Program-made: the position numbers and the translations under genes
Notes under the pieces: model-generated
What the model was told of the DNA's origin: nothing
Seen by the model: the letters and a program-made list of their open reading frames with translations, nothing else
Databases searched by the model: none
Assembly (NCBI RefSeq): GCF_000613125.1
Contig: NZ_HG964497.1
Coordinates: 4,427,127-4,491,126 of the forward strand
DNA length: 64,000 bases
Direction: 5' to 3'
Source: Bacillus sp. EB01
GTDB lineage: Bacteria > Bacillota > Bacilli > Bacillales > Cytobacillaceae
Shown here: positions 3,641 through 47,346 of the stretch, in pieces
Numbering within the stretch: position 1 is the stretch's first letter
Layout of the letters: the number at the start of each line of letters is the position of its first letter

Positions 3641-3760
3641 GATGAATGACATTTCAGGTTTCTGAAAGAGGCAAAGTGTCATTCATAACGCCGATAAATG
3701 ACATTTCGAGTTACCGAACTAGGCCAATTGTCATTCATACCCGCGATGAATGATAAAACA
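3641..3760. repeat. 52-bp palindromic tandem repeat, family F
   Basis: GATGAATGAC begins at 3641, GATAAATGAC at 3693 and GATGAATGAT at 3745, so the unit is exactly 52 bp with two full copies and the start of a third. In each full copy ATGAATGACA (or ATAAATGACA) pairs with TGTCATTCAT about 36 bases downstream. Inside is a smaller hairpin (TTTCAG/CTGAAA in copy 1, TTCG/CGAA in copy 2). The unit length matches families A and E elsewhere in the window although the sequence does not. Confidence 0.8.
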
Positions 3761-3871
3761 ATGCAGCCCCCCGAAATTACATGCATGTACATTCCCCAAT
3801 CTGGGATCACATTTGAAATTTCTCCTTTAACTGTTTACACATCCAACCAAGTTCAAAAATCCTTCCGAATC

Positions 3872-4135
3872 AATTTTTCACCAATAAATCCAATCGGCCC
3901 GTGCATGGTATCAGCTGAAGGAAGCTGTGCCGCGTTTTATCAATACATGGGAGACTGTCTGATGGAAAAGGAAAAGGTGGTGGATATTCTCCGCGAGTTC
4001 CCTGAAGGCCGGGATTCGGCTTTAATTGGTTCAGTTATTAATAAAGAACAAGGACGACTGTTGCTGGAAACCCAGCTCGGCTCAAGGCGGATTCTAAATA
4101 GGTTATCTGGGACCATGTTTCCGAGAATTTGCTGA
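3872..4135 (+). pseudogene. Fossil of hydrogenase maturation genes hypD and hypE
   Basis: A frame open since 3698 contains two C-terminal family signatures in the wrong arrangement. SPINPIGPCMVSAEGSCAAF is the end of HypD, the iron-sulfur scaffold for Fe(CN)2CO assembly; its usual leading cysteine is Phe here. About 8 residues later follows the end of HypE, with GSRRILNRLSGTMFPRIC including the C-terminal PRIC cysteine that is carbamoylated in active HypE. All catalytic domains in between are gone. A weak HypD-like IPQSG at about 3791 suggests the remnant begins earlier. No other hyp or hydrogenase gene is in the window. Best read as a deletion scar, not a working gene. Confidence 0.75.
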
Positions 4136-4147
4136 TAAAAATAATAC

Positions 4148-4182
4148 ACCCCCGCTTGCAATTCGCAGCGGGGGTTCAATTT
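4148..4182. terminator. Terminator between hyp fossil and sinR
   Basis: ACCCCCGCT (4148-4156) pairs with AGCGGGGGT (4167-4175) around a 10-base loop. It lies between convergent frames and probably ends the minus-strand sinR transcript. Confidence 0.75.
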
Positions 4183-4191
4183 TCTACATCA

Positions 4192-4557
4192 TCATTTTTG
4201 CAATTCTTCATTTACGGACTGTCTCTCCTTCTTCCAACTCTCGTATTTGATATATTTCCAATACTCCATGAAATCCTCTTTCCTCAACCCTTCCTTGATG
4301 GCTGTTAAAATCATTTCCTTCCATTCCTTATCGAGTTCTAATTCGGTTTGGTCTGTTTTACCCTCATTCCAGAGCAAGTATTCAATCGTTGTCCCTAGTG
4401 TAACGGCGACTTTGTTCAAAACCTGCAGTGAGGGATTTGTTTGAACACCTCTCTCAATTTGGCTCAGATAAGATTTTGAAACATCGGCCAGCTTGGCCAG
4501 TTCCGAAATCGAATACCCTTTCCGTTCTCTCATCTCCTTAATCCGTGATCCCAGCAT
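4192..4557 (-). CDS. sinR: SinR-like master regulator of biofilm genes
   Basis: DNA-binding repressor that in B. subtilis holds the tapA-sipW-tasA and eps matrix operons off. The first 65 residues form an HTH of the XRE/Cro type (IKEMRERKGYSISELAKLA... SKSYLSQIERG), and the C-terminus (LDKEWKEMILTAIKEG...) matches the SinR/SinI dimerisation region; 121 residues versus 111 in B. subtilis. It is transcribed away from the matrix genes, which is the conserved context. I find no sinI antagonist beside it, so the usual anti-repressor is either elsewhere or absent. Confidence 0.9.
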   Translation of the reverse strand: MLGSRIKEMRERKGYSISELAKLADVSKSYLSQIERGVQTNPSLQVLNKVAVTLGTTIEYLLWNEGKTDQTELELDKEWKEMILTAIKEGLRKEDFMEYWKYIKYESWKKERQSVNEELQK

Positions 4558-4718
4558 TTGAAATTCTCCTTTTTAAGCTACTCTACTATATATCTGTATA
4601 TTCATTATACAGAACAAAATATTCTTTATAAAATACAAAATAGTAAGAAAACAAGAGATAATACGAGATAAAGAACGATTTTCATTCTTTATTTAGAATA
4701 TTTGGGGATATTTAGGGT

Positions 4719-4777
4719 TTTTCAAGTTCACTAGGATGACATATACTCAACCTATAAAGTTCGTTAAAAAGAACAAC
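4719..4777 (+). promoter_or_regulatory. Matrix-operon promoter with SinR-type operator
   Basis: TTTTCA (4719-4724), 17 bases, then TATACT (4742-4747) is a plausible SigA promoter. Just downstream, GTTC (4759-4762) and GAAC (4771-4774) form an inverted repeat like the GTTCTYT half-sites bound by SinR. Further AGAAC half-sites lie near 4611 and 4671 between sinR and this promoter. The position after the start site would suit repression. Inferred from motif only. Confidence 0.5.
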
Positions 4778-4852
4778 TTGTGCGTTACATAGTTATAAGC
4801 AGCTGGAAAGCATCATACGCTCTTAAAGTTGGGCGGATGAAGGGGTGATGTA

Positions 4853-5470
4853 ATGAGCTATTTTACAAAAAGGTCGGCCAGATCACGAAAAGACCTATTC
4901 AAAACAAATAAAAAGAAATTCTCAATTATTATCAATCTTTGGCTTGTCTATTTCATTATTTTAGCTTCTATACCTTTAACCACCAATACATACTCGTATT
5001 TTAACGACAATGAGAAGATAGAGAATACTTTTAGAACTGCGGATGATTTTTGCTCCGATAAAGAGTATGCCAAGAAGTATAAAGAGGTCTGTAAATGTAA
5101 GGATAACTCAGGTTTAGGTAACGGAGGAGAATGTGGGGACGGAGATACAGAAACAGATAATCCTCCAGGTAATCCAAAAGACGATCACCCTAAACCAGGT
5201 ATAGGTAAACCTGAAAAACCAGAAAAACCAGAAAAACCAGAAAAATCAGAAGATCCGGAAGATCTAAAAAATGCCACTGAACCAGGGAGTTCAGAAAACC
5301 CAGGCGTCTCCAAAGAAGAGGGGACATCAAATAGTGATGAAAAATCCACAAACTTAGAGAAAGTCAAAGAAGCTGGATCAGAAGAAAATGTTTCAACTAA
5401 TGAAAATAGTTCACCTACAGAAAACACGGAATCTGGCGAAGAAAATATATCTATTGATGGATCAAACTAA
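4853..5470 (+). CDS. TapA-like matrix anchoring protein, minimal form
   Basis: First gene of the matrix island. At 205 residues it has a basic N-terminus, one hydrophobic segment (about 24-45) and then TYSYFNDNEKIENTF, an aromatic-Asp pattern like the start of mature TapA/TasA proteins and a likely SipW cleavage region. Four cysteines follow (about residues 68, 80, 82, 94). The rest is low complexity: PEKPEKPEK repeats and a Ser/Glu/Asn-rich acidic tail. B. subtilis TapA has a folded domain of about 100 residues in the middle that is missing here. AAGGGGTG precedes the ATG. Role in seeding or anchoring TasA fibres is inferred from position and N-terminal pattern. Confidence 0.65.
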   Translation: MSYFTKRSARSRKDLFKTNKKKFSIIINLWLVYFIILASIPLTTNTYSYFNDNEKIENTFRTADDFCSDKEYAKKYKEVCKCKDNSGLGNGGECGDGDTETDNPPGNPKDDHPKPGIGKPEKPEKPEKPEKSEDPEDLKNATEPGSSENPGVSKEEGTSNSDEKSTNLEKVKEAGSEENVSTNENSSPTENTESGEENISIDGSN

Positions 5471-5496
5471 CTTATACAACTGAGGAGGTAAAAGAC

Positions 5497-6069
5497 TTGA
5501 AGAAATCTTTAAAAATTGTTAGTAAAGCTACGACTATTTTACTCTCAATACTATTAATTCTGATGATATATCTAGTAGTTTCCTCAAAGATTAACGGCGG
5601 AGAACCTTCGGTTATGGGTTTCCAGTTAAAAACCGTCCTTTCTGGATCAATGGAACCTACTTTTAAAACTGGATCAATAATTGCTATTAAACCAGTAAAA
5701 GACCCTTCATTATTAAAAAAGGGTGATGTTATAACCTTTTGGAAATCTCAAGATGCATTGGCCACTCACCGAATAATTAAAGTATGGGAAAACGAAGGGC
5801 AAATGTTATTCCAAACTAAAGGCGATAACAATGATAATCCTGATTCTGAGGCTGTTGTTGGTCAGAACATAGTTGGAAAATATACTGGTTTCACTATTCC
5901 TTATGCTGGATATATAGCGGACCTTGGGAATTCTAAAGAAGGTTCTGCACTCTTACTAGTAATACCTGGAATTCTATTAATTTTTTACTCAGCACTAACT
6001 ATCTTCCGAGCAATCCGAGAAGTAGATAAAGTAACAAAATCCCAAAATGAAGTAGAGAAAACTGCATGA
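5497..6069 (+). CDS. sipW: Signal peptidase I, SipW type
   Basis: Membrane signal peptidase that processes TasA and TapA. The 190-residue length matches SipW. The catalytic serine is in SGSMEPTF; the general base position is histidine (ATHRIIKV) instead of lysine, the mark of the ER/archaeal-type SipW subfamily. Box E-like TKGDNNDNPD follows. There is an N-terminal membrane helix (about 10-30) and a C-terminal one (about 150-172). The start is TTG 5497 because GAGGAGGT lies seven bases upstream. It sits between the TapA-like gene and tasA, as in B. subtilis. Confidence 0.95.
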   Translation: MKKSLKIVSKATTILLSILLILMIYLVVSSKINGGEPSVMGFQLKTVLSGSMEPTFKTGSIIAIKPVKDPSLLKKGDVITFWKSQDALATHRIIKVWENEGQMLFQTKGDNNDNPDSEAVVGQNIVGKYTGFTIPYAGYIADLGNSKEGSALLLVIPGILLIFYSALTIFRAIREVDKVTKSQNEVEKTA

Positions 6070-6159
6070 AGGTTGTAACCTCATATGCAAAGCATAAGGG
6101 TTCAATATAAAACTTTACATACCTCACATAGATGAGGAGAAAGAGGAGGAGAAAGAAGC

Positions 6160-6978
6160 ATGAGTATTAAAAGGAAATTTGGCCTTGGTTTAGCATCAGC
6201 TGCACTAGGATTATCACTAATTGGTGGGGGGACTTACGCTTACTTCAGTGATGAAGCTACAATTCACAATGGTTTTGCTGCAGGAACTTTGAATCTTGAA
6301 GTTGGAAAGTATCCTGGTACACAATGGCCTGTTAACTTTGATCTTTCAAACCTAAGGCCGGGGGATGTAGTAGAAAGAACATTCGATCTTAATAATGTTG
6401 GCAGCCTTGCAATTGAAGACACTTATCTTGATTTTTCTAAAGTAGAAGTATCAAATCCGCTTGAAACTGGGGCATCTGCAAATTCATTCTTAAAAGCGTT
6501 AAACATTCATTATTTTGTTGAAACAGTACAGAATGGTCAAGAAAAAATTGATTCCCTTTTTGTACATGGTGAAACAATTACGTTAAAGGATGCCATTGAT
6601 GGGAATTATACAGGTAAAATTAAACCAGAATTCCTTGTTGGTGGAAAACTAAATTTAACACCAGAAGGAATTGATGTTGGGGATTACACAAGGATACGTA
6701 TCATGATTTCTTTCCCTGAAACAAATAAACCACAGAATGAATTGCAAGGAATGGTTGCCAAGGTTAACTTCAAGCTAGATTCTCGCCAAGTAATGGGCGG
6801 AAAATACTATGGTCCAAGTAAAGACAATGGACATATTACAGGAAACGAAGTACAAGGTATAGGTCAAGATTGGGATGACGAAGCCAATCCGCAGAAATAT
6901 ACGATTGATCCTACTAAAGGTGATATTGTAGATCCAGATCTAACTGATGATGAAGCTTGGAAAGATACTGGAAAATAA
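6160..6978 (+). CDS. tasA: TasA/camelysin-family biofilm fibre protein
   Basis: Major amyloid-like fibre protein of the Bacillus biofilm matrix, exported and cut by SipW. 272 residues: a signal peptide ends near GGGTYAYFSD, followed by the family landmarks FAAGTLNLEV, LSNLRPGDVVERTFDLNNVGSLAIEDTYL and IRIMISFPET. The C-terminus is acidic. GAGGAGGAGAAAG precedes the ATG. The gene is AT-richer than flanking regions, like the whole 4.6-7.7 kb island, which suggests transfer or different codon pressure. Confidence 0.93.
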   Translation: MSIKRKFGLGLASAALGLSLIGGGTYAYFSDEATIHNGFAAGTLNLEVGKYPGTQWPVNFDLSNLRPGDVVERTFDLNNVGSLAIEDTYLDFSKVEVSNPLETGASANSFLKALNIHYFVETVQNGQEKIDSLFVHGETITLKDAIDGNYTGKIKPEFLVGGKLNLTPEGIDVGDYTRIRIMISFPETNKPQNELQGMVAKVNFKLDSRQVMGGKYYGPSKDNGHITGNEVQGIGQDWDDEANPQKYTIDPTKGDIVDPDLTDDEAWKDTGK

Positions 6979-6997
6979 TTAAAATCAGTGGTCTAAG

Positions 6998-7045
6998 AGG
7001 TGGATGTTCATCCTGAAGGTGGATGTTCATTCACCTTTTTTTAAA
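6998..7045 (+). terminator. Terminator after tasA, with a short direct repeat
   Basis: AGGTGGATGTTCAT occurs twice (6998-7011, 7017-7030). The second copy forms AAGGTG/CACCTT followed by TTTTTTT, an intrinsic terminator that separates tasA from the next gene. Confidence 0.7.
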
Positions 7046-7086
7046 AGTTAAAAAACAAAGTAGAATGTTTAGAACGGAGAAAATAG

Positions 7087-7743
7087 ATGAAATCTTTATA
7101 TCTCGTTATGGGTATTTTACTATTTAGCTTTAATTTCTCCCCATTAATAATAGAAGTATTTGCACTTTCCGAAAAGGAAATCGATATAGCTACAAGTCCG
7201 GAAAAGGTACTCTTTAATATAGTAAATGCTAGACCGGGTGATGTATATTCAAATACTTTGACAGTAGTTAATTCAGGGACAGAAAATTATAACTACCTCT
7301 TTTCAAACAAGTTTTTAAATGGTACAAAGAAATTTTATAATGAACTATTATTAACGGTCTCAGATAAAAATGGAGATTTATATAATGGAAAGTTAATGGA
7401 CTTTGAAAAGTTGAACCTAAGGCCCCTTAATGCAAAATTAAGTGAAAAGTTAGTATTTTCTATTGAAGTACCCCTTGAACTTGGAAATGAATATCAAGGG
7501 ATGAGTAGCGAATTTGAATTCAAATTTTACGCCGAAGGCACTCTTGGCGGCTTAATCCCCCCAGACGATGTCCCACTAGGACCAATCGATACACCATTAG
7601 GGCCAATTAAGCTTCCGGATACAGCAACAGAAGCCTTCAACTTCCTTGCTGCCGGATTAATCATGCTAACTGTTGGCTTTTCAGTGAGGTATATTATCAA
7701 ATTTAAAAAGAAAATAACCGACACAAGTTTAACGAGACCCTGA
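7087..7743 (+). CDS. Secreted protein with LPDTA sortase signal, next to tasA
   Basis: No named family recognised. 218 residues: signal peptide (1-26), then a domain with NARPGDVYSNTLTVVNSGTENY, which echoes the RPGD...NxG pattern of TasA/camelysin proteins. A proline/glycine hinge with two PLGPI units follows, then LPDTAT, a 20-residue hydrophobic segment and a positive tail (KFKKK). That C-terminus is a cell-wall sorting signal; LPDTA/LPDTS is used by the class D sortase YhcS of B. subtilis. It could tie TasA fibres to peptidoglycan (inference). A terminator lies between it and tasA, so it may have its own promoter. Confidence 0.75.
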   Translation: MKSLYLVMGILLFSFNFSPLIIEVFALSEKEIDIATSPEKVLFNIVNARPGDVYSNTLTVVNSGTENYNYLFSNKFLNGTKKFYNELLLTVSDKNGDLYNGKLMDFEKLNLRPLNAKLSEKLVFSIEVPLELGNEYQGMSSEFEFKFYAEGTLGGLIPPDDVPLGPIDTPLGPIKLPDTATEAFNFLAAGLIMLTVGFSVRYIIKFKKKITDTSLTRP

Positions 7744-7772
7744 ACTGGATATAGGATATCAGGGTCTTTTGT
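7735..7772 (+). terminator. Terminator of LPDTA protein gene
   Basis: AGACCCTGA (7735-7743) pairs with TCAGGGTCT (7759-7767) and is followed by TTTT. The left arm overlaps the stop codon. Confidence 0.85.
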
Positions 7773-7843
7773 ACGTATACGGGCATAATTAGATTACATA
7801 AGACGTATTTTATAGGGTATTCGAAGAAGGGGAGCGGAGAGGG

Positions 7844-8053
7844 ATGTATAAAAAAATTTGTACGGAGTGCGAGAAGCCGTCTTACAGCAGCTGTGATTCT
7901 GGGACATGGCTTTGCCCGGTTTGTGGTGCTGATATAACAAAGGTAAGTTTGCATGCGCCTGAGAGCCAGCGCGGGCAGAACCAGGTTGAACTGTTGTCTG
8001 GACAGTACATAAAGCAACAAGGTAATCAGAAACTATATCATGAGCTAGTTTAA
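7844..8053 (+). CDS. Small zinc-ribbon protein, 69 aa
   Basis: No named family recognised. The N-terminal half holds CTEC and CPVC pairs separated by about 17 residues, a probable zinc ribbon; the C-terminal half is polar. AAGGGGAGCGGAGAGGG precedes the ATG. It stands alone between two terminators. Role unknown; such small ribbon proteins often bind nucleic acid or a protein partner. Confidence 0.6.
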   Translation: MYKKICTECEKPSYSSCDSGTWLCPVCGADITKVSLHAPESQRGQNQVELLSGQYIKQQGNQKLYHELV

Positions 8054-8140
8054 TCCACTGATCACCTGAATTTTTTCAATAAATCTGCGCATAATCAGAC
8101 ACATTTCGAGCAGTCATTACGGTATACTATACTCAAACGG

Positions 8141-8416
8141 GTGAAAAAGAGGATTGATACTATTTTAATAGTGAAAAGCCTGGAGTTCACAAATGCAGTG
8201 GGATTGAAGGTTAAAATTGTGGAGATTCCTGTATTGGAGGAAGATAATCCGAATCATTTCATGATCCGATTCAGTTTGCAGACATTTATGATGAGCCTAA
8301 ATGAAGAACAGCAGCCGAAACCTTGCTATTCCTTCAGGGATTATTTGAAACGGACCTTGAGATGGCCTGATTATGAGCAGCTTTACTCGTCTACTACATT
8401 AAAAAATAATGCATGA
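8141..8416 (+). CDS. Hypothetical protein, 91 aa
   Basis: Not recognised. The frame is open with plausible codon use (HFMIRFSLQTFMMSLNEE..., SFRDYLKRTLRWPDYEQLY). The start is uncertain: GTG 8141 has only weak ribosome-site similarity, and two overlapping TATACT boxes at about 8124-8134 would put the transcript start almost on it. A later GTG at 8171 is possible. A terminator follows. Confidence 0.45.
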   Translation: MKKRIDTILIVKSLEFTNAVGLKVKIVEIPVLEEDNPNHFMIRFSLQTFMMSLNEEQQPKPCYSFRDYLKRTLRWPDYEQLYSSTTLKNNA

Positions 8417-8423
8417 CTAGCAT

Positions 8424-8449
8424 GGGTGCCGAAAATCGGCATCCTTTTT
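8424..8449 (+). terminator. Terminator before degV
   Basis: GGGTGCCGA and TCGGCATCC form a stem around AAA, followed by TTTTT. Confidence 0.8.
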
Positions 8450-8451
8450 CG

Positions 8452-8481
8452 TTGGTATCCATGGTTTTTAATAGGTATAAT
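8452..8481 (+). promoter_or_regulatory. SigA-type promoter of degV
   Basis: TTGGTA (8452-8457), an 18-base spacer and TATAAT (8476-8481) lie 36 bases before the degV start. Confidence 0.55.
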
Positions 8482-8517
8482 AAGTACTAAGTGTAAATTA
8501 GCAGGGAAGTGAATGTA

Positions 8518-9360
8518 ATGGCAAAGATTAAGATAGTTACTGATTCGACACATGATATGCCTAAAGAAATAATTGACCAGTATGGAATTGAAGTGGTTCC
8601 GCTAACAATATCTGTTGCGGGAAAAACGTATACCGATGGCGTGGATATCCATCCGGAAGAATTTTTGGCAAGAATGAAACAATCTCCGGAACTTCCGAAA
8701 AGCTCGCAGCCTTCCGCTGGTGCTTTTCTAGAGGTGTATGACCGTCTTGGAGCAGAAGGTTACGACATTCTGTCCATCCATATGACAGGGAAAATGAGTG
8801 GGACTGTCCGCTCTGCTGAAAGTGCTGCCGGGATGACAAAATATAACGTGACCGTTGTTGACTCGAAATTCATTTCAAAAGCTCTCGGTTTTCAGGTTAA
8901 GGAAGCAGCAATTATGGCCGCTAACGGAAAATCAATGGAAGAAATCCTCGCTCGGCTTGAGTCCATGAGTGAAAATACACGTCTTTACATAATGGTTGAT
9001 ACGCTTGAAAACCTGGTGAAGGGCGGCAGGATCGGAAAAGGCAGGGCATTCCTTGGCTCACTTTTGAACATTAAACCGATTGCCTCTCTTGAAGGAGCCG
9101 AATACAACCCGGTTGCCAAGGTGCGCAGCTACACACAGGTTGTTAAGTTCTTGGCAAAACAATTTGCTGAAGATGTAAAAGGCAAGTCGATAAAGAGCGT
9201 AGGAATCGCACATGCCGGAGCGGAAGAACTTGCAGGAAAAGTCGCAGACAGCATCCGTGAAGCAACAGGCTTCGATAGGGTTGAAATTGACTATACGAAT
9301 TCGACAGTCAGCACCCATACAGGCCCAGGCGCGTTTGCGCTTATGTACCACTTTGAATAA
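8518..9360 (+). CDS. degV: DegV family fatty-acid-binding protein
   Basis: DegV/FakB proteins bind a fatty acid and present it to the kinase FakA for use in phospholipid synthesis. The 280-residue length is typical. Landmarks: IVTDSTHDMP at the N-terminus, VPLTISV, SSQPSAGAF, SIHMTGKMSGT (fatty-acid-carboxyl-binding region) and KGGRIGKGRAFLGSLLNIKPI. I choose ATG 8518 because GGGAAG lies eight bases upstream; a GTG nine bases earlier overlaps that site. Single gene between terminators. Confidence 0.92.
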   Translation: MAKIKIVTDSTHDMPKEIIDQYGIEVVPLTISVAGKTYTDGVDIHPEEFLARMKQSPELPKSSQPSAGAFLEVYDRLGAEGYDILSIHMTGKMSGTVRSAESAAGMTKYNVTVVDSKFISKALGFQVKEAAIMAANGKSMEEILARLESMSENTRLYIMVDTLENLVKGGRIGKGRAFLGSLLNIKPIASLEGAEYNPVAKVRSYTQVVKFLAKQFAEDVKGKSIKSVGIAHAGAEELAGKVADSIREATGFDRVEIDYTNSTVSTHTGPGAFALMYHFE

Positions 9361-9368
9361 AAAGATTT

Positions 9369-9399
9369 GGCTGGGACAATAGGTTCCGGCCTTTTTTGA
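9369..9399 (+). terminator. Terminator of degV
   Basis: GGCTGGGAC pairs with GTTCCGGCC and is followed by TTTTTT. Confidence 0.75.
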
Positions 9400-9463
9400 T
9401 CAACAAAACGAAATCCTTTCCACTTTTGAAAACGTTTGATAAGATAGGGACGACTATAGAGAT

Positions 9464-10057: not shown

Positions 10058-10081
10058 AGCCCTCAATTGGGCTTTTTTTGT
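10056..10081 (+). terminator. Terminator of sco gene
   Basis: AAAGCCC and GGGCTTT around TCAATT, followed by TTTTG. Confidence 0.85.
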
Positions 10082-10126
10082 TAATGTCGTTTTGAAGCGG
10101 ACAAGGACCAAAAAGGGAGTTGGACT

Positions 10127-10334
10127 TTTATTGAAGACTGTACCCAAGTTTTCCTGGTTCATAGAGTAGCCAATAAGCTCTATTGACGACTGTACCAAGG
10201 TTTCCCTGGTTCATAGGGTCGTCAAGGAGCTCCATTGACGACCGGACACCAATTTTTCTAACTCACAGGGTCGACAAGAAGCTCTATTGACGACCGTACA
10301 CCACTTTCCCTGGCTCGCAGGGTCGCCAATAAAC
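10127..10334. repeat. 52-bp palindromic tandem repeat, family A, locus 1 (4 units)
   Basis: Four consecutive units of exactly 52 bp start at 10127, 10179, 10231 and 10283. Each begins close to TCTATTGACGACYGTACC and ends close to AGGGTCGTCAATAAGC. TTGACGAC and GTCGTCAA are complementary within a unit (hairpin with about 27 bases between) and also across the unit border (loop of 9). Units 2 and 4 are the best conserved. A second locus of the same family is at 47191-47346. No reading frame is supported here. Confidence 0.9.
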
Positions 10335-10489
10335 TATACTTCAAGTATTTCATGTACCGCCCAACATATCTTTGATGAGCCAAACCTAGGATACAATGAA
10401 AAACCAATATTATTCAGGCTTGTCCCGGTGCTTTTCAGGCATTCCAGCTGCCGAGCAATGATATAATAAGAAAAAAACGTGAAGGGAAG

Positions 10490-11299: not shown

Positions 11300-11325
11300 A
11301 CTGCAGCTGATGAGGGGAATCATGA

Positions 11326-11973: not shown

Positions 11974-12099
11974 TTAGGATGCTTCCCAAAAAATACAGGA
12001 CACATTTTAAAAAATACAGGACACTTTTCAAAAAATACAAGACACTTTCCAAAAAATACAGGACACATTCCAATAAATACAGGACATTTCTCAAAAAAT
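11974..12099. repeat. 21-bp tandem repeat, family C, locus 1
   Basis: ACAGGACAC-type cores start at 11995, 12016, 12037, 12058 and 12079, an exact 21-bp period; unit form AAATACAGGACACATTTT. A degenerate sixth copy fits at 11974. The family reappears on the other strand at 42525-42655. The units are not palindromic. Confidence 0.88.
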
Positions 12100-13036: not shown

Positions 13037-13040
13037 TAAT

Positions 13041-24390: not shown

Positions 24391-24465
24391 AAAAATATAT
24401 GAGCCAATTTACCATGTATATGAGCCGTTTTTGCATGTATATGAGCATTTAGACATTTATTGGAA
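24391..24465. repeat. 21-bp tandem repeat, family D
   Basis: TATATGAGC starts at 24396, 24417 and 24438, an exact 21-bp period, in the context CATGTATATGAGC. A fourth, decayed copy fits near 24459. Located between yodJ and ctpA; no coding potential. Confidence 0.8.
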
Positions 24466-29206: not shown

Positions 29207-29362
29207 GTGTATTGGTCACATTTTAGGGAGTGGAGACAAGTGAAATGTAAGGCTGTATTGGCCACATTTTGGATTCTAAAGTTAGTTGAAATGTAGCCAA
29301 TAGTCTTTATTGGCACCGTTTTGAGTTCTGAAGGCATCCGAAATGTAACCAATGAGGTGTTT
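29207..29362. repeat. 52-bp palindromic repeat, family E (3 units)
   Basis: ATTGG-type unit starts lie at 29211, 29257 and 29309. Units 2 and 3 are 52 bp apart; unit 1 is six bases shorter and lacks the CCAAT of its right arm. In full units ATTGGCCACATTT pairs with AAATGTAGCCAAT (13 bp, one mismatch). Same unit length and inverted-repeat layout as families A and F, different sequence. Confidence 0.8.
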
Positions 29363-29553
29363 TAATAAAACTTTGGTTTATAGGGATTGGATTATTGGCT
29401 AATCACACAAAGGTAGCGAATAGCTGGATAATTGCACTTAATCCAAAGATTGAGCTAAGGTAAGATAAGTTAAATATATTCTCCTTAACTAATGTAGGCG
29501 GTCCAATAGATTTTTGGACAGCCTTTTATTAGGAACACTAATATCCTATTGCC

Positions 29554-30825: not shown

Positions 30826-30925
30826 GTAAACCGCCGAATTAATTTTAAAACCGCCGAATTATTTTCGAAATCGCCGAATTATCCAAAACTGCTGAACTTA
30901 GACCAAAACTTCAGAAGTAATTTTG
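30826..30925. repeat. 20-bp tandem repeat, family B, locus 1
   Basis: CCGCCGAATT cores start at 30831, 30851 and 30871, with decayed copies at 30889 and 30909 (period 20, 20, 18, 20). Unit form AAACCGCCGAATTATTTT. Locus 2 is at 42421. Confidence 0.82.
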
Positions 30926-31053: not shown

Positions 31054-31120
31054 CTAAACAATAATAATATTATGTAAACACCCAAACAAAAAATAAAACC
31101 GCAATAGCGGTTTTATTTTA
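31054..31120. repeat. Shared module with terminator, copy 1
   Basis: A 27-base segment at 31054-31080 starting CTAAACAATAA is repeated with two differences at 42665-42691. In both places it is followed by a similar AATAAAACCGC/GCGGTTTTATT hairpin (here 31091-31118), which ends the minus-strand gene beside it, and preceded by family B repeats. Confidence 0.7.
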
Positions 31121-39809: not shown

Positions 39810-39847
39810 CCGAGACAGGCAGAATTCCGGCTTATGAATTACAATAA

Positions 39848-41377
<1,530 letters not shown>

Positions 41378-41400
41378 GTACTCGAAAGAGGGATACCATC

Positions 41401-41898: not shown

Positions 41899-41973
41899 CA
41901 GTTTCGGTATGACCTTTTAACAAAAATGTGCTATAATAATTAATAGAAGAAAAAACAAACCATTTTACAGCAT

Positions 41974-42028
41974 CACCAAATTATAAAAAGCGGCAAGGAA
42001 TGTGCTTTTTATAACGCGGTGTTTTTTT
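41974..42028 (+). terminator. Long terminator after phosphoesterase gene
   Basis: TTATAAAAAGC (41981-41991) pairs perfectly with GCTTTTTATAA (42004-42014); CACC/GGTG extend the stem outward, followed by TTTTTTT. Confidence 0.85.
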
Positions 42029-42115
42029 CTTCAGGTCATCCGGCAGTTTAGGTATCTATACTCCGGATGCGGAATGGGAATCCGCCGATGAAACAAACTA
42101 ATGGAGGTGCCTGGA

Positions 42116-42319
42116 ATGGCGTTTGGACGGAGAAATATGGAAGAAGTTGTGTTGGAAGCTACTGAAGTTTGGGAGTGCACTGCTGAAGGATGCAAGGCTT
42201 GGATCCGAGATAACTTCAAAAGTGAGGATACACCAGAATGCCCCATTTGCAAAAGTGAGATGAGACGGGCCACCAAAGAACTTCAAGCAGTCGCAAATAC
42301 TAGCAAGCGCTATATATAG
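42116..42319 (+). CDS. YdjO-like cold-inducible zinc protein, 67 aa
   Basis: WECTAEGCKAWIRDNFKSEDTPECPICKSEM matches the YdjO family: a C-x4-C...C-x2-C zinc-binding module. Start ATG 42116 with GGAGGTG six bases upstream. In B. subtilis the family is cold-inducible; the exact role is unknown. Preceded by the long terminator and a leader of about 85 bases. Confidence 0.87.
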   Translation: MAFGRRNMEEVVLEATEVWECTAEGCKAWIRDNFKSEDTPECPICKSEMRRATKELQAVANTSKRYI

Positions 42320-42381
42320 GCAGAAGTTTGATTCAAGGTGTTGTTGAGTTTTATAATTAATACCATTATGATTAAAAAGTT

Positions 42382-42418
42382 AAAGGTGTCTGTCAGATTA
42401 CTGGCAGGCACCTTTTGT
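42382..42418 (+). terminator. Terminator of ydjO-like gene
   Basis: AAAGGTGTCTG pairs with CAGGCACCTTT (one mismatch) and is followed by TTGTCT. Confidence 0.82.
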
Positions 42419-42420
42419 CT

Positions 42421-42490
42421 TAAAATCGCCGAATTAATTCTATTACCGCTGAATTAATTAAAAAAATGCCGAATTATAATGAATGTTGCT
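42421..42490. repeat. 20-bp tandem repeat, family B, locus 2
   Basis: TCGCCGAATT, CCGCTGAATT and ATGCCGAATT begin at 42426, 42446 and 42466, an exact 20-bp period; a decayed fourth copy (TTGCTCGGTT) fits at 42486. Same family as 30826-30925. Confidence 0.82.
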
Positions 42491-42524
42491 CGGTTGGATG
42501 TACTCGGGTTTTTAGAGTGAAATA

Positions 42525-42656
42525 GAGTTTGTCCTGAAAAGTTGAAAATCTGTCCTGCAATGCTTGGGAAATGTCCTGCATTTTTCGGGAAATGTCCTGT
42601 ATATCGTAAAATCTGTCCTGAATATTTAAAAACGTGTCCTGATTCAATAAACATAA
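42525..42656. repeat. 21-bp tandem repeat, family C, locus 2 (inverted)
   Basis: TGTCCTG starts at 42530, 42551, 42572, 42593, 42614 and 42635: six units with an exact 21-bp period. The reverse complement reads AAATATTCAGGACA, so it is family C (11974-12099) in the opposite orientation. Confidence 0.88.
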
Positions 42657-42664
42657 AACGAGAA

Positions 42665-42734
42665 CTAAACAATAACGATATTATGTAAACAAATTAATGT
42701 AAAAATAAAACCGCGGCTGCGGTTTTTATTTTTT
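42665..42734. repeat. Shared module with terminator, copy 2
   Basis: 27 bases (42665-42691) match 31054-31080 with two differences, followed by an AAAACCGC/GCGGTTTT hairpin with T tract. It ends the minus-strand gene at 42760. Both copies lie beside family B repeats. Confidence 0.7.
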
Positions 42735-42759
42735 AACTCAAATATTTTCCCTTGGGTCG

Positions 42760-43047
42760 TTAAGCTTCCTCAAAATGATTGCTGCAATAGTCGATAACCA
42801 TTTGTTCCTCGTCATCCTCAAGGGCAAAGTCAAGCACCTTCCCAGAGCCTTTTTCGAAAAAATTATATTGGGCAATTTTGTTTTCGCTGCCTTCCACAGC
42901 AAAAATAACCTTTAGCCCTGTACCAGCTACAGTGTATAACTCGTCCTCTTCGTCGATATCCAAATCGAGTAGAAATTCAAATCGTTCCCCGGTTAGCAGT
43001 CCAAACGGATCTTCCAAATATTCAACTGTATGGCCGATAATCTCCAT
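42760..43047 (-). CDS. DUF6509-like small acidic protein, 95 aa
   Basis: Starts MEIIGHTVEYLEDPFGLLTGERFEFLLDLDIDEEDELY and contains KIAQYNFFEKGSGKVLDFALEDDEE, which fits a Bacillus family I recall as DUF6509 (sometimes mislabelled pullulanase). ATG 43047 is preceded by GGAGG at nine bases; TTG 43056 is less likely. Function unknown. Confidence 0.75.
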   Translation of the reverse strand: MEIIGHTVEYLEDPFGLLTGERFEFLLDLDIDEEDELYTVAGTGLKVIFAVEGSENKIAQYNFFEKGSGKVLDFALEDDEEQMVIDYCSNHFEEA

Positions 43048-43286
43048 ATATGTCAACCTCCAAACTTCAAGAAAATATTTACTATAGACTTTAATAAAAA
43101 TAACACAACCAAAAGGTAAATCAAAGCTCTGTGAATTTTACAATAAAAAGTGGCTAATTCTTGTCATATAAAAACGAAGAAACTGTGAACGACTCATTCA
43201 AATCATTACACTACTAGAAATAATTGCTAAACTGGTAATGAGAATTACTCTGATATTTCTATAAAAATTCATTACCTCACTAATCA

Positions 43287-43302
43287 TGTGAATATTTTCA
43301 CA
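43287..43302 (+). promoter_or_regulatory. FNR/CRP-type box before torD-dmsAB
   Basis: TGTGAATATTTTCACA is a perfect match to the TGTGA-N6-TCACA box used by Bacillus FNR. FNR control would fit an anaerobic DMSO-reductase-like operon. The box ends six bases before AGGAGG, much closer to the start codon than the -41.5 position of activator sites, so it could block rather than activate, or a transcript start lies elsewhere. Confidence 0.65.
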
Positions 43303-43319
43303 AAAAAGGAGGAGTTGCT

Positions 43320-43985
43320 TTGGCTGCAGCTCATACAACATCTAATTTTACCACCATCTTGTCGGCAAGGAAGAATTTCTATGAATTCACTCACCAATTA
43401 TTTTCGTCACCGCTGGATCTTAACAGCCTAAATTCAATAAAGCTATTTGGGAATATAGAAGGTTTATTGGAACTGGGGGACGGCGGGAAAGCCCTGTTTC
43501 ACTTTTTTACAAAAGCTGGAGAAGATGAATTAAAACTAGAAGAAATCCAGTTTGCACGGTTATTTATTGGACCGCTTTCATTGCCAGCCCCTCCCTGGGA
43601 GTCGTTTTACAAAAGCAGGGAGAGATTGCTTTTCGATGACTCAATGTATGAAGTAAGGCGGGCATATCATGAGTCGGGTCTGAAGTTTTTTAAAGAAAAT
43701 AAGGAACCGGATGACCATTTACTTACTGAGCTTGAATTTATGATTCATTTATCCCGTAGAAGTGTCAGTGAAACCGAACCTTCCAAACTTAACGATTTAT
43801 TTCAGCGCCAATACTACTTCCTGGATAAGCAACTGGGCAGCTGGGTTCCACTATTCGCTGAAAAACTTGCCGGAAAATCGGACAGTGTCCTATATGTAGG
43901 GGCAGCCCGGCTTCTGGCTGATTTCATAACTGAAGACAAAGAATGCCTGAAAGAGTTGATGGAGGGATTAGCCTATGTCCACTAA
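43320..43985 (+). CDS. TorD/DmsD family redox-enzyme chaperone
   Basis: Binds the twin-arginine leader of a molybdoenzyme and holds it until cofactor insertion. All-helical, 221 residues; the family signature is LFIGPLSLPAPPWESFY, and LLTELEFMIHL is typical. TTG 43320 is the start, with AGGAGG seven bases upstream. The last 11 bases overlap the dmsA start, so chaperone and client are translationally coupled. Confidence 0.9.
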   Translation: MAAAHTTSNFTTILSARKNFYEFTHQLFSSPLDLNSLNSIKLFGNIEGLLELGDGGKALFHFFTKAGEDELKLEEIQFARLFIGPLSLPAPPWESFYKSRERLLFDDSMYEVRRAYHESGLKFFKENKEPDDHLLTELEFMIHLSRRSVSETEPSKLNDLFQRQYYFLDKQLGSWVPLFAEKLAGKSDSVLYVGAARLLADFITEDKECLKELMEGLAYVH

Positions 43986-46359
43986 AAGGGAGCAGGGTAT
44001 ATTAAATAAGGAATTCAAACGGCGCACGTTCCTAAAATGGTCGGGGGGTATCGGGTTACCGCTTATCCTTGGTGGAGTTGGGGCCAGCCAGTTAATCAGC
44101 AAGGATGAAACTGCAAAAGGTTTGAAATCGGATATTCCTGAAGAAATCATTAATACATGCAGTGCTTTTAACTGTGGGGGCCGCTGCCTAATCAAAACAC
44201 ATGTCAGGGATGGAGTGGTGGTTCGGATTAGTACGGATACCAATGAGGATTCCCTTCCGACCCCTCAGCTTCGGGCTTGCGTCAGGGGACGGAGTTATAA
44301 AAGCATGCTGTATCATCCTGACCGGCTGAAATATCCAATGAAACGCATAGGCAAACGTGGCGAAGGAAAGTTTGAAAGGATTAGCTGGGAAGAAGCTATT
44401 GATACAATCGCAAAAGAAACAAAGCGGATTGGTGACACATACGGACGTGAATCAAGATATGTCAATTATGGCTCTGGACTTGGAGGGCTGTTTGGCGGAA
44501 AACAAATGGCTAGACGCCTGCTGGCGATGACGGGCGGATATCTGAATTACCGGAACGACTATAGCTCAGGGTGCGCTAACGTAGCTACACCTTACACGTA
44601 CGGGACTAATAATACTGGTTCAAGCTTTGATAACCTGCTCCATTCGAAATACATCATACTTTGGGGCCAGAATCCGTCAGAAGTGATATTTTCTACTCCA
44701 TATTTAGCTTTCCTCCGCGAAGCAAAGAAAAATGGGGCAAAGATTATCGTTATTGATCCTCGTTATACCGATACAGCGATTGCTTTTGCCGATGACTGGA
44801 TTCCGATTCTGCCGTCTACAGACGTCGCGATGATGGACGCAATGGCCTATGTAATCGTAACTGAAGGCTTGCACGATCAGAGGTTTTTAGATACGTATTG
44901 CCTTGGGTTTGATGAAGACCATATGCCGGACGGAGCACCAAAGGAAGCGACTATCAAAAACTATCTCCTTGGCAAGACGGACGGAATTCCGAAAACACCT
45001 GAATGGGCGGAAAAGATTTGTGGGGTTCCAGCTTCAAAAATCATCGAAATTGCCCGCGAATTCGCGACAACAAAGCCTGCAACCCTAATCAATGGCTGGG
45101 GTCCTCAGCGCGCAGCTTACGGAGAACAAATTATCCGAGGCGGCGCTCAATTGACTGCCTTAACCGGAAATATCGGAAAGCTTGGCGGAGGCGCGGCGGG
45201 GACAGGGTATTGGTCCCGTTCGAATATCGTCTACCCAGTCACTAGTGAAAACCCGGTAACCGCATCAATTCCTTGCTTCCAGTGGACAACTGCTGTTGAA
45301 AGAGGAACGGAAATGACAGCTGAAGACGGGCTTGAAGGCACAGATAAGCTAAAGTCCAACATTAAGCTGATTTATAATATAGCCGGAAATATGCTGCTAA
45401 ACCAGCATTCAGACATCAACAAGACAAAGGCATTGCTCGAAGACGAAAGCAAGGTGGAGTTTATCCTGGTCACTGAATTGTTCATGACACCGAGCGCGAA
45501 ATATGCGGATATCCTCCTGCCCGGTACAAGCTTTTTTGAACGATGGGATATCGGAATGCCATGGTGCTTCGGTGATTATGCTTTATTTGGCGGTAAGACC
45601 ATCGACCCCTTGTATGAGTGCAGAAATGAGTATGATATTTTTGCCGATGTTGCCGGTAAATTCGGGCTGAAGGAGAAGTATACTGAAGGGCGCACGATGC
45701 TCGATTGGGTAAAAGTCAGCATTGAAAGAACAAGGGCAGAACTCGATCCAAACTTTCCAACCTTTGAGGAATTCCAGAAAAACGGGGTTTATCATTTTAG
45801 GTACGATGAACCATTAATTGCATTCCAAAAACAAATTGAGGATCCAAAAAACAATCCATTTGAAACTCCTTCAGGCAAAATTGAATTGTTCTCAAAGGCA
45901 TTGTGGGATATGAAAAAACATGACGAGATACCGCCTTTCGCCAAATATGTGGCTGCATGGGAAGGGCCGGCTGATCCAATAAAAGCCAAGTACCCTCTTC
46001 AAATGATCAGCTGGCATTATAAAAGACGGTGCCACTCGACACATGACAATAATCCGTGGCTCGAGGAAACTGCTCCTCAGGAAATGTGGATCAACCCGCG
46101 CGACGCGAGAGCACGGGGAATTAAAGAAGGGGATAGGGCTAAAGTGTTCAATGATCGCGGGCTCATTCACATCCCTGTAAAAATTACTAGCAAAATCATC
46201 CCTGGTGTCGTGGGGATACCTCAAGGAGCCTGGTACACTCCTGACGAGAATGGAATCGACCAGCGCGGCTCGATTAACGTGCTTACAAAGCACCACCCTA
46301 CGCCGCTTGCAAAAGCAAACCCGCAGCAAACCAATCTTGTTGAAGTAACTAAAGCGTAG
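43975..46359 (+). CDS. dmsA: DMSO reductase family catalytic subunit DmsA
   Basis: Molybdopterin oxidoreductase, probably a terminal reductase of anaerobic respiration outside the membrane. Tat signal RRTFLKWSGG (about 17-26). A [4Fe-4S] motif follows (CSAFNCGGRC plus the Cys in LRACVRGRS). NDYSSG holds the likely Mo-ligand serine. Many blocks match E. coli DmsA: HPDRLKYPMKRIGKRGEGKF, TPEWAEKICGVPA, GWGPQR, YNIAGN, SAKYADILLPG, KIELFSKAL and HYKRRCHSTHDN. 794 residues. The first Cys spacing is x4, versus x3 in E. coli. Substrate cannot be assigned; tat genes are at 2.4 kb. Confidence 0.92.
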   Translation: MSTKREQGILNKEFKRRTFLKWSGGIGLPLILGGVGASQLISKDETAKGLKSDIPEEIINTCSAFNCGGRCLIKTHVRDGVVVRISTDTNEDSLPTPQLRACVRGRSYKSMLYHPDRLKYPMKRIGKRGEGKFERISWEEAIDTIAKETKRIGDTYGRESRYVNYGSGLGGLFGGKQMARRLLAMTGGYLNYRNDYSSGCANVATPYTYGTNNTGSSFDNLLHSKYIILWGQNPSEVIFSTPYLAFLREAKKNGAKIIVIDPRYTDTAIAFADDWIPILPSTDVAMMDAMAYVIVTEGLHDQRFLDTYCLGFDEDHMPDGAPKEATIKNYLLGKTDGIPKTPEWAEKICGVPASKIIEIAREFATTKPATLINGWGPQRAAYGEQIIRGGAQLTALTGNIGKLGGGAAGTGYWSRSNIVYPVTSENPVTASIPCFQWTTAVERGTEMTAEDGLEGTDKLKSNIKLIYNIAGNMLLNQHSDINKTKALLEDESKVEFILVTELFMTPSAKYADILLPGTSFFERWDIGMPWCFGDYALFGGKTIDPLYECRNEYDIFADVAGKFGLKEKYTEGRTMLDWVKVSIERTRAELDPNFPTFEEFQKNGVYHFRYDEPLIAFQKQIEDPKNNPFETPSGKIELFSKALWDMKKHDEIPPFAKYVAAWEGPADPIKAKYPLQMISWHYKRRCHSTHDNNPWLEETAPQEMWINPRDARARGIKEGDRAKVFNDRGLIHIPVKITSKIIPGVVGIPQGAWYTPDENGIDQRGSINVLTKHHPTPLAKANPQQTNLVEVTKA

Positions 46360-46374
46360 GGGGAGTGAAGCATA

Positions 46375-46953
46375 ATGGTACAAATGGGATTTTATATAAA
46401 TCAAACACTTTGCTCTGGCTGCAAGGCTTGCACAGTTGCCTGTAAGGACAAGAAGGACCTTGAAGTAGGCCAAAATTTCCGGAGAGTATATGCTTATGAG
46501 GAAGGTTCCTATATCCAAAAGGGAACAGCGATTGTTCATAATATAAAGGCCTTCTATTTTTCGATATCGTGCAACCATTGCAAAAACCCAGCATGTTTGC
46601 CTGCTTGCCCAACTGGAGCAATTATTAAGCGAAAGGAAGATGGCATCACTATCATCGACCAGGATATTTGCCGGGGGACGAAATTCTGCATATCCGCCTG
46701 TCCTTATGGAGCACCTCAATACAACGATAAATTATTCAAGGCAAATAAATGCGATTTTTGCCTTGATCTTCAGGAAAAGGGTGAAGACCCTGTCTGCGTT
46801 TCATCCTGTATCATGAGAGCTATTGAGTATGGGCCGATCGAGGAGCTCAGGGAAAAATACGGCAAGGTTGATCAGATAAAAGGAATGCCGGATTCATCGA
46901 TCACGAACCCTAATTTGGTCATCACACCACATAAAGATGCGTACATGAGTTAA
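46375..46953 (+). CDS. dmsB: DmsB-like four-cluster ferredoxin subunit, altered motif III
   Basis: Electron-transfer subunit, 192 residues. Cys motifs: CSGCKACTVAC (I), CNHCKNPACLPACP (II), CRGTKFCISACP (III) and CDFCLDLQEKGEDPVCVSSC (IV). Motif III should read CxxCxxCxxxCP; the second cysteine is threonine. That is the position of E. coli DmsB Cys102, where NarH naturally has Trp and carries a [3Fe-4S] cluster, so a 3Fe cluster is predicted here. GGGGGAG precedes the ATG. No DmsC membrane anchor follows: a terminator and tRNA-Leu come next. Confidence 0.9.
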   Translation: MVQMGFYINQTLCSGCKACTVACKDKKDLEVGQNFRRVYAYEEGSYIQKGTAIVHNIKAFYFSISCNHCKNPACLPACPTGAIIKRKEDGITIIDQDICRGTKFCISACPYGAPQYNDKLFKANKCDFCLDLQEKGEDPVCVSSCIMRAIEYGPIEELREKYGKVDQIKGMPDSSITNPNLVITPHKDAYMS

Positions 46954-47013
46954 ACAGCAGAAGAGAAGATACCCTCTGGAAAGGCTAGTGATGGCCTCTT
47001 TTCGGGGCAAATC

Positions 47014-47048
47014 AAAAAAGACTTCAGCACAATGCTGAAGCCTTTTTT
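47014..47048. terminator. Bidirectional terminator between dmsB and tRNA-Leu
   Basis: CTTCAGCA (47022-47029) pairs with TGCTGAAG (47033-47040); AAAAAAG before and CCTTTTTT after allow use in both directions. Confidence 0.88.
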
Positions 47049-47049
47049 A

Positions 47050-47133
47050 TGCGGATGAGAGGACTTGAACCTCCACGGGGTTGCCCCCACTAGAACCTGA
47101 ATCTAGCGCGTCTGCCGATTCCGCCACACCCGC
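47050..47133 (-). tRNA. tRNA-Leu (CAG)
   Basis: Class II tRNA of 84 nt on the minus strand. Acceptor GCGGGTG pairs with CATCCGC, discriminator A, D arm with GGCAGACGC, anticodon stem CTAGA/TCTAG with loop TTCAGGT (anticodon CAG), long variable arm GTGGGGGCAACCCCGT and T arm GGAGG-TTCAAGT-CCTCT. No CCA is encoded. Upstream on the minus strand a TATAGT box lies at about 47148-47153, and beyond it the family A repeats. Confidence 0.97.
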
Positions 47134-47190
47134 AAAAAGAATACGTTTACACTATAACACAATTCCCGATTTCTGTGCACGAAATTTTTT

Positions 47191-47346
47191 CTTATTGGCG
47201 ACCGCAGCCCTCAATTCTTAACCATTAGAGTCGTCAAGAACCTCTATTGACGACCGTACCCTCACTTTTTAAACGATTACGGTCGTCAAGAGCCTTTATT
47301 GACGACCGCACCGGCTAGTTCTAAATCATCAGGGTCGTCAATAAAT
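47191..47346. repeat. 52-bp palindromic tandem repeat, family A, locus 2 (3 units)
   Basis: Units start at 47191, 47243 and 47295, each 52 bp, with the same ends as at 10127-10334 (TCTATTGACGACCG and GGTCGTCAATAA). In the middle unit TTGACGACCGTA pairs with TACGGTCGTCAA without mismatch. Across the unit borders CGGTCGTCAA and TTGACGACCG form 10-bp stems with 9-base loops. Confidence 0.92.

Follow-up and report, generated by a model that had tools for sequence, protein, structure and literature searches.

Tandem arrays in the window

The 64-kb window (the whole stretch of DNA analyzed) carries arrays of short tandem repeats that were grouped into families A to F (Table 1). Nine clusters had been picked out by eye in the initial annotation and TRF recovered clusters near these positions, looser settings being needed for the 52-bp array of family E and for the weak 20-bp array of family B. 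According to our own ORF calls the arrays lie outside genes, as had been described, except for the family F array, 42% of which falls inside a 145-aa ORF whose start is perhaps over-long. Rfam searches of the window at the gathering threshold returned two T-boxes and one tRNA, with no match on the arrays. At several sites terminators, as judged by eye, stand just before the arrays.

Table 1. Repeat arrays and dyads in the window
Feature	Position	Strand	Details
Family F, 52-bp tandem array	3641..3753	.	~2.2 units; TRF period 52
Family F, single GTC-N19-GAC dyad	3678-3702		
Family A, 52-bp array, first locus	10129..10329	.	3.9 units; half-site GTCGTCAA; TRF
Family A, first locus, GTC-N19-GAC dyads	10218-10242 and 10270-10294		
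Family C, 21-bp direct repeats	11976..12099	minus	TGTCCTG; TRF (11986-12099) and core chain; 5 cores recovered (up to 1 mismatch allowed)
Family D, 21-bp direct repeats	24396..24446	plus	TATATGAGC...; ~2.4-3 units; TRF and sequence
Family E, 52-bp array	29207..29363	.	~3 units; arms TATTGGYNACATTTT/AAATGTNACCAATA; TRF 29250-29363 and sequence
Family E, degenerate dyad	29293-29317		
Family B, 20-bp direct repeats	30828..30923	plus	CCGCCGAATTA...; without TGTC; TRF (30828-30882)
Family B, weak 20-bp array	42422..42476	plus	~3 units; TRF score 68
Family C, six 21-bp units	42530..42641	plus	exact TGTCCTG cores; TRF 42551-42642; GGGAAA ends units 2 and 3; belongs to genome-wide family
Family A, 52-bp array, second locus	47193..47344	.	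2.9 units; TRF (47193-47312)
Family A, second locus, GTC-N19-GAC dyads	47230-47254 and 47282-47306		

Inverted arms were present in all three 52-bp families (A, E and F), in agreement with the initial annotation. These families had also been said to share no sequence, a statement that holds only in part, GTC-N19-GAC occurring in both A and F and in a degenerate form in E. TGTC is absent from families B and D of the window; the reverse complement of the family D unit, GGCTCATATA, is a partial fit to the half-site described below.

Abundance of the arrays and relation to a published class

When 464 kb of the same genome were sampled, the periods of intergenic tandem repeats peaked at 52, 20-21 and 130, far above shuffled sequences. 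This sample contained 26 intergenic arrays at a TRF score of at least 80, 19 of them with a period of 20-21, 40-43, 51-53 or more than 100 and 7 with other periods, whereas dinucleotide shuffles (n=20) yielded 1.05 arrays per shuffle, every one of other periods. The arrays are real and beyond chance. Units of 51-53 and 20-21 nt dominate the intergenic tandem repeats, as in the Bacillus class that Subirana and Messeguer reported (2021, PMC8161180), in which tandem repeats of unknown function vary in sequence but keep one size, 52 or 20-21 nt. The finding as first posed, for a class to which no name could be given, is therefore already known. The two sets agree in unit length (52, range 51-53, and 20-21), non-coding location, several families per genome and species-specific sequences; likewise, several families that agree in length but differ in sequence occur in one genome (G000). 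For the relative B. selenatarsenatis, 30 arrays of 20-21 nt and 49 of 51-53 nt were reported (PMC8161180). The search setting in that study was at least four units per array, a number reached by most family C arrays and by several arrays elsewhere in the genome, whereas most 52-bp arrays of the window fall below it.

The conserved unit length that had been proposed from the window was borne out by the genome sample as well as by relatives, many of the unit sequences being new, and in the suggested survey of relatives lag 52 was the top intergenic lag in 10/16 sampled genomes. The puzzle in the literature concerns the reason for a fixed repeat length among variable sequences.

A core shared by many 52-bp units

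The arrays of all samples pooled (61) fell into 28 clusters, and GTC-N19-GAC was centered on the dyad of many 52-bp units. GTC/19 was the top trinucleotide/spacer combination, occurring in 10/28 clusters; in 200 column-permutation shuffles its mean was 0.175 and its maximum 2, and the best of any combination was 6. It also ranked top among all 27 consensus units of Table 1 in PMC8161180 (7/27; mean 0.15, maximum 2 and best of any combination 5 in 500 shuffles). The exact core does not occur in 18/28 of our clusters and in 20/27 published units, three of these 20 (horikoshii, m3-13 and pseudalcaliphilus) having N17 instead of N19. Subirana and Messeguer reported, as a property and not as a criterion of the class, that sequence is not conserved, and gave short signals particular to each species, often with the reverse in the same repeat; in contrast, one core at fixed spacing was found here across genera, and also in 7 of the units that they printed. 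Contrary to what had been supposed, the sequence is not entirely free: this core recurs in many families, though not in all.

The pooled arrays contained 126 dyads, in 44/61 arrays, compared with 2.8 after shuffling, and successive dyads were exactly 52.0 bp apart in 60/82 cases and 26.0 bp in 14/82. In raw counts at k=19 and period 52, TTT and AAA exceeded GTC. A tandem pattern with 12 fixed bases, GTC-N19-GAC-N27-GTC-N19-GAC, was searched for in 199 genomes of 98 genera of the order. At least one match was found in 62/199 genomes (36/98 genera) and at least ten in 35/199 genomes (22/98 genera); the corresponding figures for the backward control were 27 and 3 genomes. Counts were high in, for example, G010, G034, G176, G226, G100 and G158 and zero in many genomes; matches include neighboring units of one array, so that a high count may come from few arrays, and in G165 all the matches listed belong to a single array. 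Shortening the spacer by one base gave 22 matches instead of 3,973 in 20 genomes picked mostly for high counts, a control that backs the earlier suggestion of selection on geometry.

Family C and the 20-21-bp class

The 21-bp units of family C fit the same half-site, GTC-N4-A, and of 129 distinct units, 81% have A at position 8 of the half-site. Between two species 13/413 positions had changed in the core against 73/821 in the spacer, a count that is biased because the arrays were located via the core. Exactly six cores were found in 25/40 arrays with the units in fixed order, suggesting the copying or retention of entire elements rather than the addition of single units site by site. In G000 the family forms 20 arrays, some of them in tandem, whose units are ordered and whose flanks are shared, and the family is nearly confined to some members of one genus. 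Among 40 groups, 10 were convergent, 16 co-directional and 6 divergent with respect to neighboring genes and 8 were inside ORF calls, and no clear preference of orientation was found.

The TGTC triple occurred in 123/199 genomes, many controls being equally high (481 against 479 in G129; also G060), so that only an excess is informative, and the 21-bp TGTC pattern was clearly over control only in some genomes. One motif for all 20-21-bp families was considered: family C fits, family D and the TTTATGAAGACA type fit only partly, and family B and the Peribacillus arrays do not. A coding heptad repeat (21 bp being 7 codons) was discarded for family C since some units hold in-frame stops, as seen by eye. 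In IMG/VR, 22 stretches fitted the triple pattern; by eye these look like in-frame coding repeats of 21 bases whose spacers are unrelated, and they were set aside. One G000 family C element had no match in plasmids or phages, and an origin from these was dropped.

Proposed DNA sites

Four observations, namely exact spacings, a core common to many families and, as presented below, the absence of an RNA-strand bias and the excess of arrays between convergent genes, lead us to lean towards the arrays being tandem double-stranded DNA sites for a putative sequence-specific DNA-binding protein, or for related proteins. The half-site would be approximately TGTC-N4-A-K-A. Arrays of the 52-bp class have two of them facing each other (GTC-N19-GAC), the T-to-A centers being separated by 22 bp, or roughly two helical turns, and such pairs succeed one another at 52-bp intervals (roughly five turns). 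In family C direct copies of the half-site, most commonly six, follow at 21-bp steps (two turns). Since the half-sites lie nearly on one face of the helix, the bound protein could align as a filament or patch. The putative protein may be dimeric or polymerizing, and its role would be structural (organization of the nucleoid or of the ends of transcription units) rather than control of promoters.

A wider proposal, which we hold to be possible but doubtful, is that the 52-nt and 20-21-nt classes are the inverted and direct arrangements of this one degenerate half-site, read by a putative DNA-binding family that is widespread in Bacillales and absent from array-poor model species, and that would assemble phased arrays of nucleoprotein where transcription units end, as a bacterial counterpart of satellite-binding proteins.

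What is new here is that many families have a GTC core at exact spacing, which suggests, from sequence comparison, sites for a putative DNA-binding protein. With at least ten occurrences per genome in 22/98 genera, the core offers a concrete site in place of length without sequence. Were such a protein found, many intergenic arrays would be accounted for, and a chromosome-organizing system might come to light that was missed because no 52-nt repeats are given for the well-studied subtilis, cereus and megaterium groups in Table 5 of PMC8161180.

Less probable readings: RNA, mobile elements or slippage

Relative to the length of intergenic DNA, arrays were enriched between convergent genes (23/54, p=2e-5) and depleted between divergent genes (4/54, p=0.003), the background being 8 genomes of the genus only and some of the 54 arrays coming from other genera or from loci picked for arrays. 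The low number between divergent genes, the inverted arms in 44/61 arrays and the transcription of 52-nt repeats in B. coagulans reported from RNA-seq (PMC8625621) would also agree with the units being stem-loops of transcribed RNA, in 3' UTRs or as small RNAs (sponges, stabilizers or Hfq ligands), and RNA roles are discussed by Subirana and Messeguer (PMC8161180). For an RNA stem, however, G.U pairs are acceptable on one strand only, the transcribed one, whereas arm mismatches were symmetric (66 G.T and 69 A.C) and no RNA-strand bias was found in them (sense strand, 17 G.T against 26 A.C, p=0.22, without overdispersion). Halves matched no better within than between units in 7/8 genomes, in a test of low power (4-15 units each; genomes chosen from the first matches listed, G000 left out) in which G207 departed in the opposite direction (p=0.009) and G177 was borderline (p=0.08). 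Family C is a direct repeat, and for a hairpin loop a spacer length precise to the base is unexpected. We judge an RNA function to be quite improbable.

Copying by a transposase without host function, as in REP/RAYT-like or MITE-like elements, seems unlikely to us, although the ordered, flank-sharing family C arrays of G000 and the narrow distribution of this family point that way, as does the resemblance of palindromes between convergent genes to REPs (PMC3733652). The presence of PF01797 (RAYT and IS200 transposase family) does not follow the arrays: G010 has 0 PF01797 matches and 532 pattern matches, and G038, G039, G040, G045 and G047 have PF01797 matches and 0 pattern matches, which rules out this transposase as a requirement. 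No terminal repeats or target duplications were recognized by eye, and selfish copying alone does not explain why sequences that differ should keep a single exact spacing in many genera. Neutral slippage, or fixed-step copying, that yields 20-21- and 52-bp repeats whatever the sequence could account for the gain and loss of 21-bp units (G000 has one more than G007 at one locus, L099/L112, and one fewer at another, L087/L110), but is already weakened by the core common to many genera at exact spacing; with the fixed unit order of family C and the rarity of arrays between divergent genes also against it, we regard it as very improbable.

Comparison with other repeats

A CRISPR array, in which identical repeats alternate with unrelated spacers, was rejected: the spacers of family C are ordered and show relatedness from locus to locus, and the repeat of the 52-bp class comprises the entire unit. 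REP/RAYT elements (PMC3733652) are likewise short extragenic palindromes of many families, often between convergent or co-directional genes, and their palindromes have an unpaired GTAG or CGTC tag at one end; in contrast, the arrays here are direct tandem with a 52-bp step, have the core inside the arm and do not track PF01797. STAR elements of staphylococci (PMC3532100), which have a staphylococcal core sequence, are similar in being interspersed intergenic direct repeats with locus-specific spacers and an unproven role. The TAACTGA direct repeats of Beggiatoaceae (PMC4679880) resemble TGTCCTG of family C in being intergenic with a fixed heptamer. That heptamer is a different one and in the BOGUAY genome lies mostly just upstream of start codons, whereas family C arrays occur in all gene orientations.

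Recurrent array periods in the window and in related genomes

The arrays that the initial annotation had located by eye were recovered by TRF at the same sites, and looser settings added two more in the window. The window occupies positions 4427127-4491126 of the source genome (G000, a single 5.28-Mb contig, C1), which was sampled as the window plus 20 evenly spaced 20-kb pieces, 464 kb in all, with 85.7 kb intergenic according to simple ORF calls. Intergenic stretches of 30 bases were counted at each lag where 22 or more positions matched. Lag 52 ranked first (690), followed by 104 (330), 130 (280) and 21 (191), and then by 51 and 103 (142 each), 128 (105), 20 (83), 118 (78) and 42 (75), with a median of 0 across lags 8-139. 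At a TRF score of at least 80, 26 arrays were observed in this sample against 1.05 per shuffle (20 shuffles). Nineteen of them fell in the 20-21, 40-43, 51-53 or >100 bp bins and seven outside these bins, as did all the shuffle arrays. Further unit sequences were present at 52 bp (e.g. CTAGACGAA...TTCGTCTAG) and at 20-21 bp (e.g. TTTATGAAGACA). The tandem-repeat finding is genuine. Units of 108-140 bp, often 130 bp (2.5 x 52), were also seen in long arrays made of CTAGT/ACTAG-rich motifs, possibly a third class.

The constant period extended to relatives. Among 16 genomes (100-464 kb each), lag 52 led in ten, with new unit sequences (G000, G007, G005, G001, G002, G004, G006, G031, G034 and G032), and ranked second in G003; lag 51 was a weak second in G024, and in the 100-464 kb sampled from each of G012, G018, G029 and G036 lag 52 was outside the leading lags. 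In Peribacillus and related species, a homologue of the query protein is followed downstream by 20-21-bp arrays. The well-conserved 127-bp and 125-bp repeats are perhaps recent expansions unrelated to the 52/20-21-bp class.

The arrays belong to a class already in print, and the earlier statement that no name was known for it has to be corrected, since constant-size, variable-sequence repeats have been published for Bacillus (PMC8161180). That study reported 4,029 tandem repeats in 176 Bacillus genomes, 66.2% with units of 20-21 or 51-53 nt, constant in size, variable in sequence and without obvious function, and proposed nucleoid proteins or small RNAs (PMC8161180). The 52-nt satellites of B. 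coagulans are reported as transcribed (PMC8625621). No report of a common core in these repeats was found in the open-access literature searched. The authors of the constant-size study also have an earlier paper in J. Bacteriol. What the present analysis adds to the published class is a GTC core at exact spacing, common to many families.

Coordinates of arrays and other features (window positions, or positions in loci, L, taken from genomes, G)
Feature	Location	Remark
Arrays added by looser TRF settings	window 29250-29363; 42422-42476
Protein	window 43975-46359	79% identity to Neobacillus notoginsengisoli, 75% to Mesobacillus zeae (closest among named records found; scan may omit nearer ones)
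MFS gene	window 47467-48738	Pfam
AAACAATAAYRATATTATGTAAACA, short element before terminators	window ~31056-31080; 42667-42694	beside two B/C array regions, by eye
Tandem T-box leaders	window 49599-49845; 49886-50127	Rfam; ahead of ORF at 50184
Long arrays, 108-140 bp units	L081:7023-7416; L086:18992-19568	G000
Long arrays, 108-140 bp units	L269	G005
Long arrays, 108-140 bp units	L290; L343	G003; G001
41-bp array	L152:14848-15045	Bacillus sp. B15-48; inverted CGAGT...ACTCG motifs
127-bp tandem repeat	L317:8153-9286	G029
125-bp tandem repeat	L153:3502-4265
GTC-N17-GAC geometry	L290; L232	G003
52-bp family with TTATCCAC inside its arms	L265; L103:3901-4047	G007; G000

A core and a dyad shared by unlike 52-bp families

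The repeats had been described as constant in length and unrelated in sequence; the first part stood, and the second was in part contradicted by GTC-N19-GAC. With the arms of unlike families aligned on the dyad, GTC stood in one shared position, its G lying 12 bp off the axis. The arrays were grouped by shared 12-mers into 28 clusters and all 64 trinucleotides were scanned at spacers of 0-46. GTC-N19-GAC was the top combination, found in 10 of the 28 clusters where 200 shuffling runs gave it 0.175 on average and 2 at most, and the best score reached by any combination in the cluster shuffles was 6. It was again top in a second set, the 27 consensus units that PMC8161180 prints, with seven carriers (two coagulans, two litoralis, oceanisediminis, thermoamylovorans and alkalitelluris; shuffles: mean 0.15, maximum 2, 500 runs), and three further units carry an N17 spacer; these units are likely fully independent of the sampled genomes, though some species could be in both sets. 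Raw counts at N19 in the genome samples were higher for TTT and AAA pairs than for GTC, as expected of AT-rich DNA. In the genus, GTC had its sole peaks at spacer 19 (59; runner-up 12) and at period 52 (59; runner-up 9), and in eight genomes of the family its sole peak was at spacer 19 (21; runner-up 8).

The GTC-N17-GAC geometry, also seen in the published horikoshii and m3-13 units, has TGTCTTCAT arms similar to the core found in the 20-21-bp TTTATGAAGACA family. Another 52-bp family carries TTATCCAC, a sequence close to the DnaA box, in its arms, with ATC replacing GTC.

The dyads were scanned in 61 arrays with a period of 50-54 or multiples. These arrays came from the samples of the 16 genomes plus ten further loci chosen for containing arrays; some are orthologous, and L149 and L233 appear to be a single array in two records. 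Inverted arms were found in 44 of the 61, giving 126 dyads compared with 2.8 in shuffles. Successive dyads were exactly 52.0 bp apart in 60 of 82 cases and 26.0 bp apart, on a second axis, in 14. The arms reach about 16 bp out from the axis; positions 16 and 17, beyond the range used for picking dyads, have pairing fractions of 0.70 and 0.35.

The order was represented by 199 genomes in 98 genera, of which 62 genomes and 36 genera had one match or more to the two-unit tandem pattern, GTC-N19-GAC-N27-GTC-N19-GAC; the backward control was matched in 27 genomes. At least 10 matches were found in 35 genomes of 22 genera, compared with three genomes for the control (maximum 17). The highest count was 614 (G226) and G000 had 69; the matches are not independent because neighbouring units are counted. 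Among the matches listed, those of G165 form one array and those of G000 are spread over numerous sites between 273 kb and 3.65 Mb. Shortening the GTC-to-GAC spacer by one base (N18/N28) left 22 matches versus 3,973 at N19/N27 in 20 genomes, a ratio that is not an unbiased estimate since these genomes were mostly chosen for high counts. In a class-level sample the pattern occurred in 27 of 250 genomes (22 of the 250 from the same order); outside the order, many matches were found only in family f73 (192, 52, 4 and 0 in four genomes), the others having 0-2.

Half-sites in DNA or stems in RNA

An RNA stem kept by selection would leave its mismatches as G.U on one strand. The arms held 66 G.T and 69 A.C mismatches, plus 228 others; where arrays lie between co-directional genes, the sense strand had 17 G.T and 26 A.C (p=0.22), and no excess spread of mismatches between arrays was detected (p=0.88). 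Left and right halves were compared in eight genomes, with 4-15 distinct units each, from 41 tandem-pattern matches among those listed; these are genomes other than G000, whose own families differ strongly among themselves. Agreement within units was no better than between units in seven of the eight (G177 borderline, p=0.08), and in G207 the halves agreed better within the unit (p=0.009). On this evidence the palindrome makes better sense as a half-site present in two copies, with the consensus GTCC-N-W-Y-A-K-A-A in those eight genomes. Phased half-sites for a putative DNA-binding protein are the most economical reading; the protein itself, its state of oligomerisation and the role it would have are inference.

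The 21-bp family C bears on the extent of this half-site. In G000, TGTCCTG-N13-16-TGTCCTG gave 62 matches versus 10 in the control; with N14, the pair occurred 51 times in G007, 12 times in G005 and once or not at all in the five remaining members of the genus. A count of exactly six cores, each with no more than one mismatch, was found in 25 of 40 family C arrays from two species. Spacer types follow a mostly fixed order, GGGAAA usually ending units 2 and 3, and the elements have common flanks and tandem copies at two loci. A occupies position 9 in 81% of the 129 distinct units and T occupies position 10 in 75%; the family therefore reads GTC-CTGN-A-T, the layout of the 52-bp half-site. Ten orthologous pairs from two species had changes at 13/413 core, 73/821 spacer and 307/2,678 flank positions, the core figure being flattered because the arrays were located by their core. 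Triple TGTC at 21 bp was far above control in some other genera (e.g. G180, 218 vs 0; G096, 53 vs 1; G208, 44 vs 3) and not far above it in most others, and some matches resemble coding repeats. TGTC was not found in families B and D or in the Peribacillus arrays, and a half-site shared by the 52-bp and 20-21-bp classes is therefore a proposal.

Position relative to genes

Among 54 52-bp arrays flanked by gene calls on both sides, 23 lay between convergent, 27 between co-directional and 4 between divergent genes; intergenic DNA of eight genus genomes (spacers of at least 150 bp) is 18, 59 and 24%, respectively, by length, a background narrower than the array set, which adds other genera and loci chosen for arrays. 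In six of the eight genus genomes an array occupies the spacer on the 3' side of the MFS gene, and in G005 and G001 there is none. Arrays thus recur in this spacer with changing sequence: two have GTCGTCAA arms, one each has GTCACTAA, GGGCACTAA and TGTCTTCAT, and one is a 21-bp array. They lie on either side of a tRNA-Leu, so the spacer is the same and the point within it is not.
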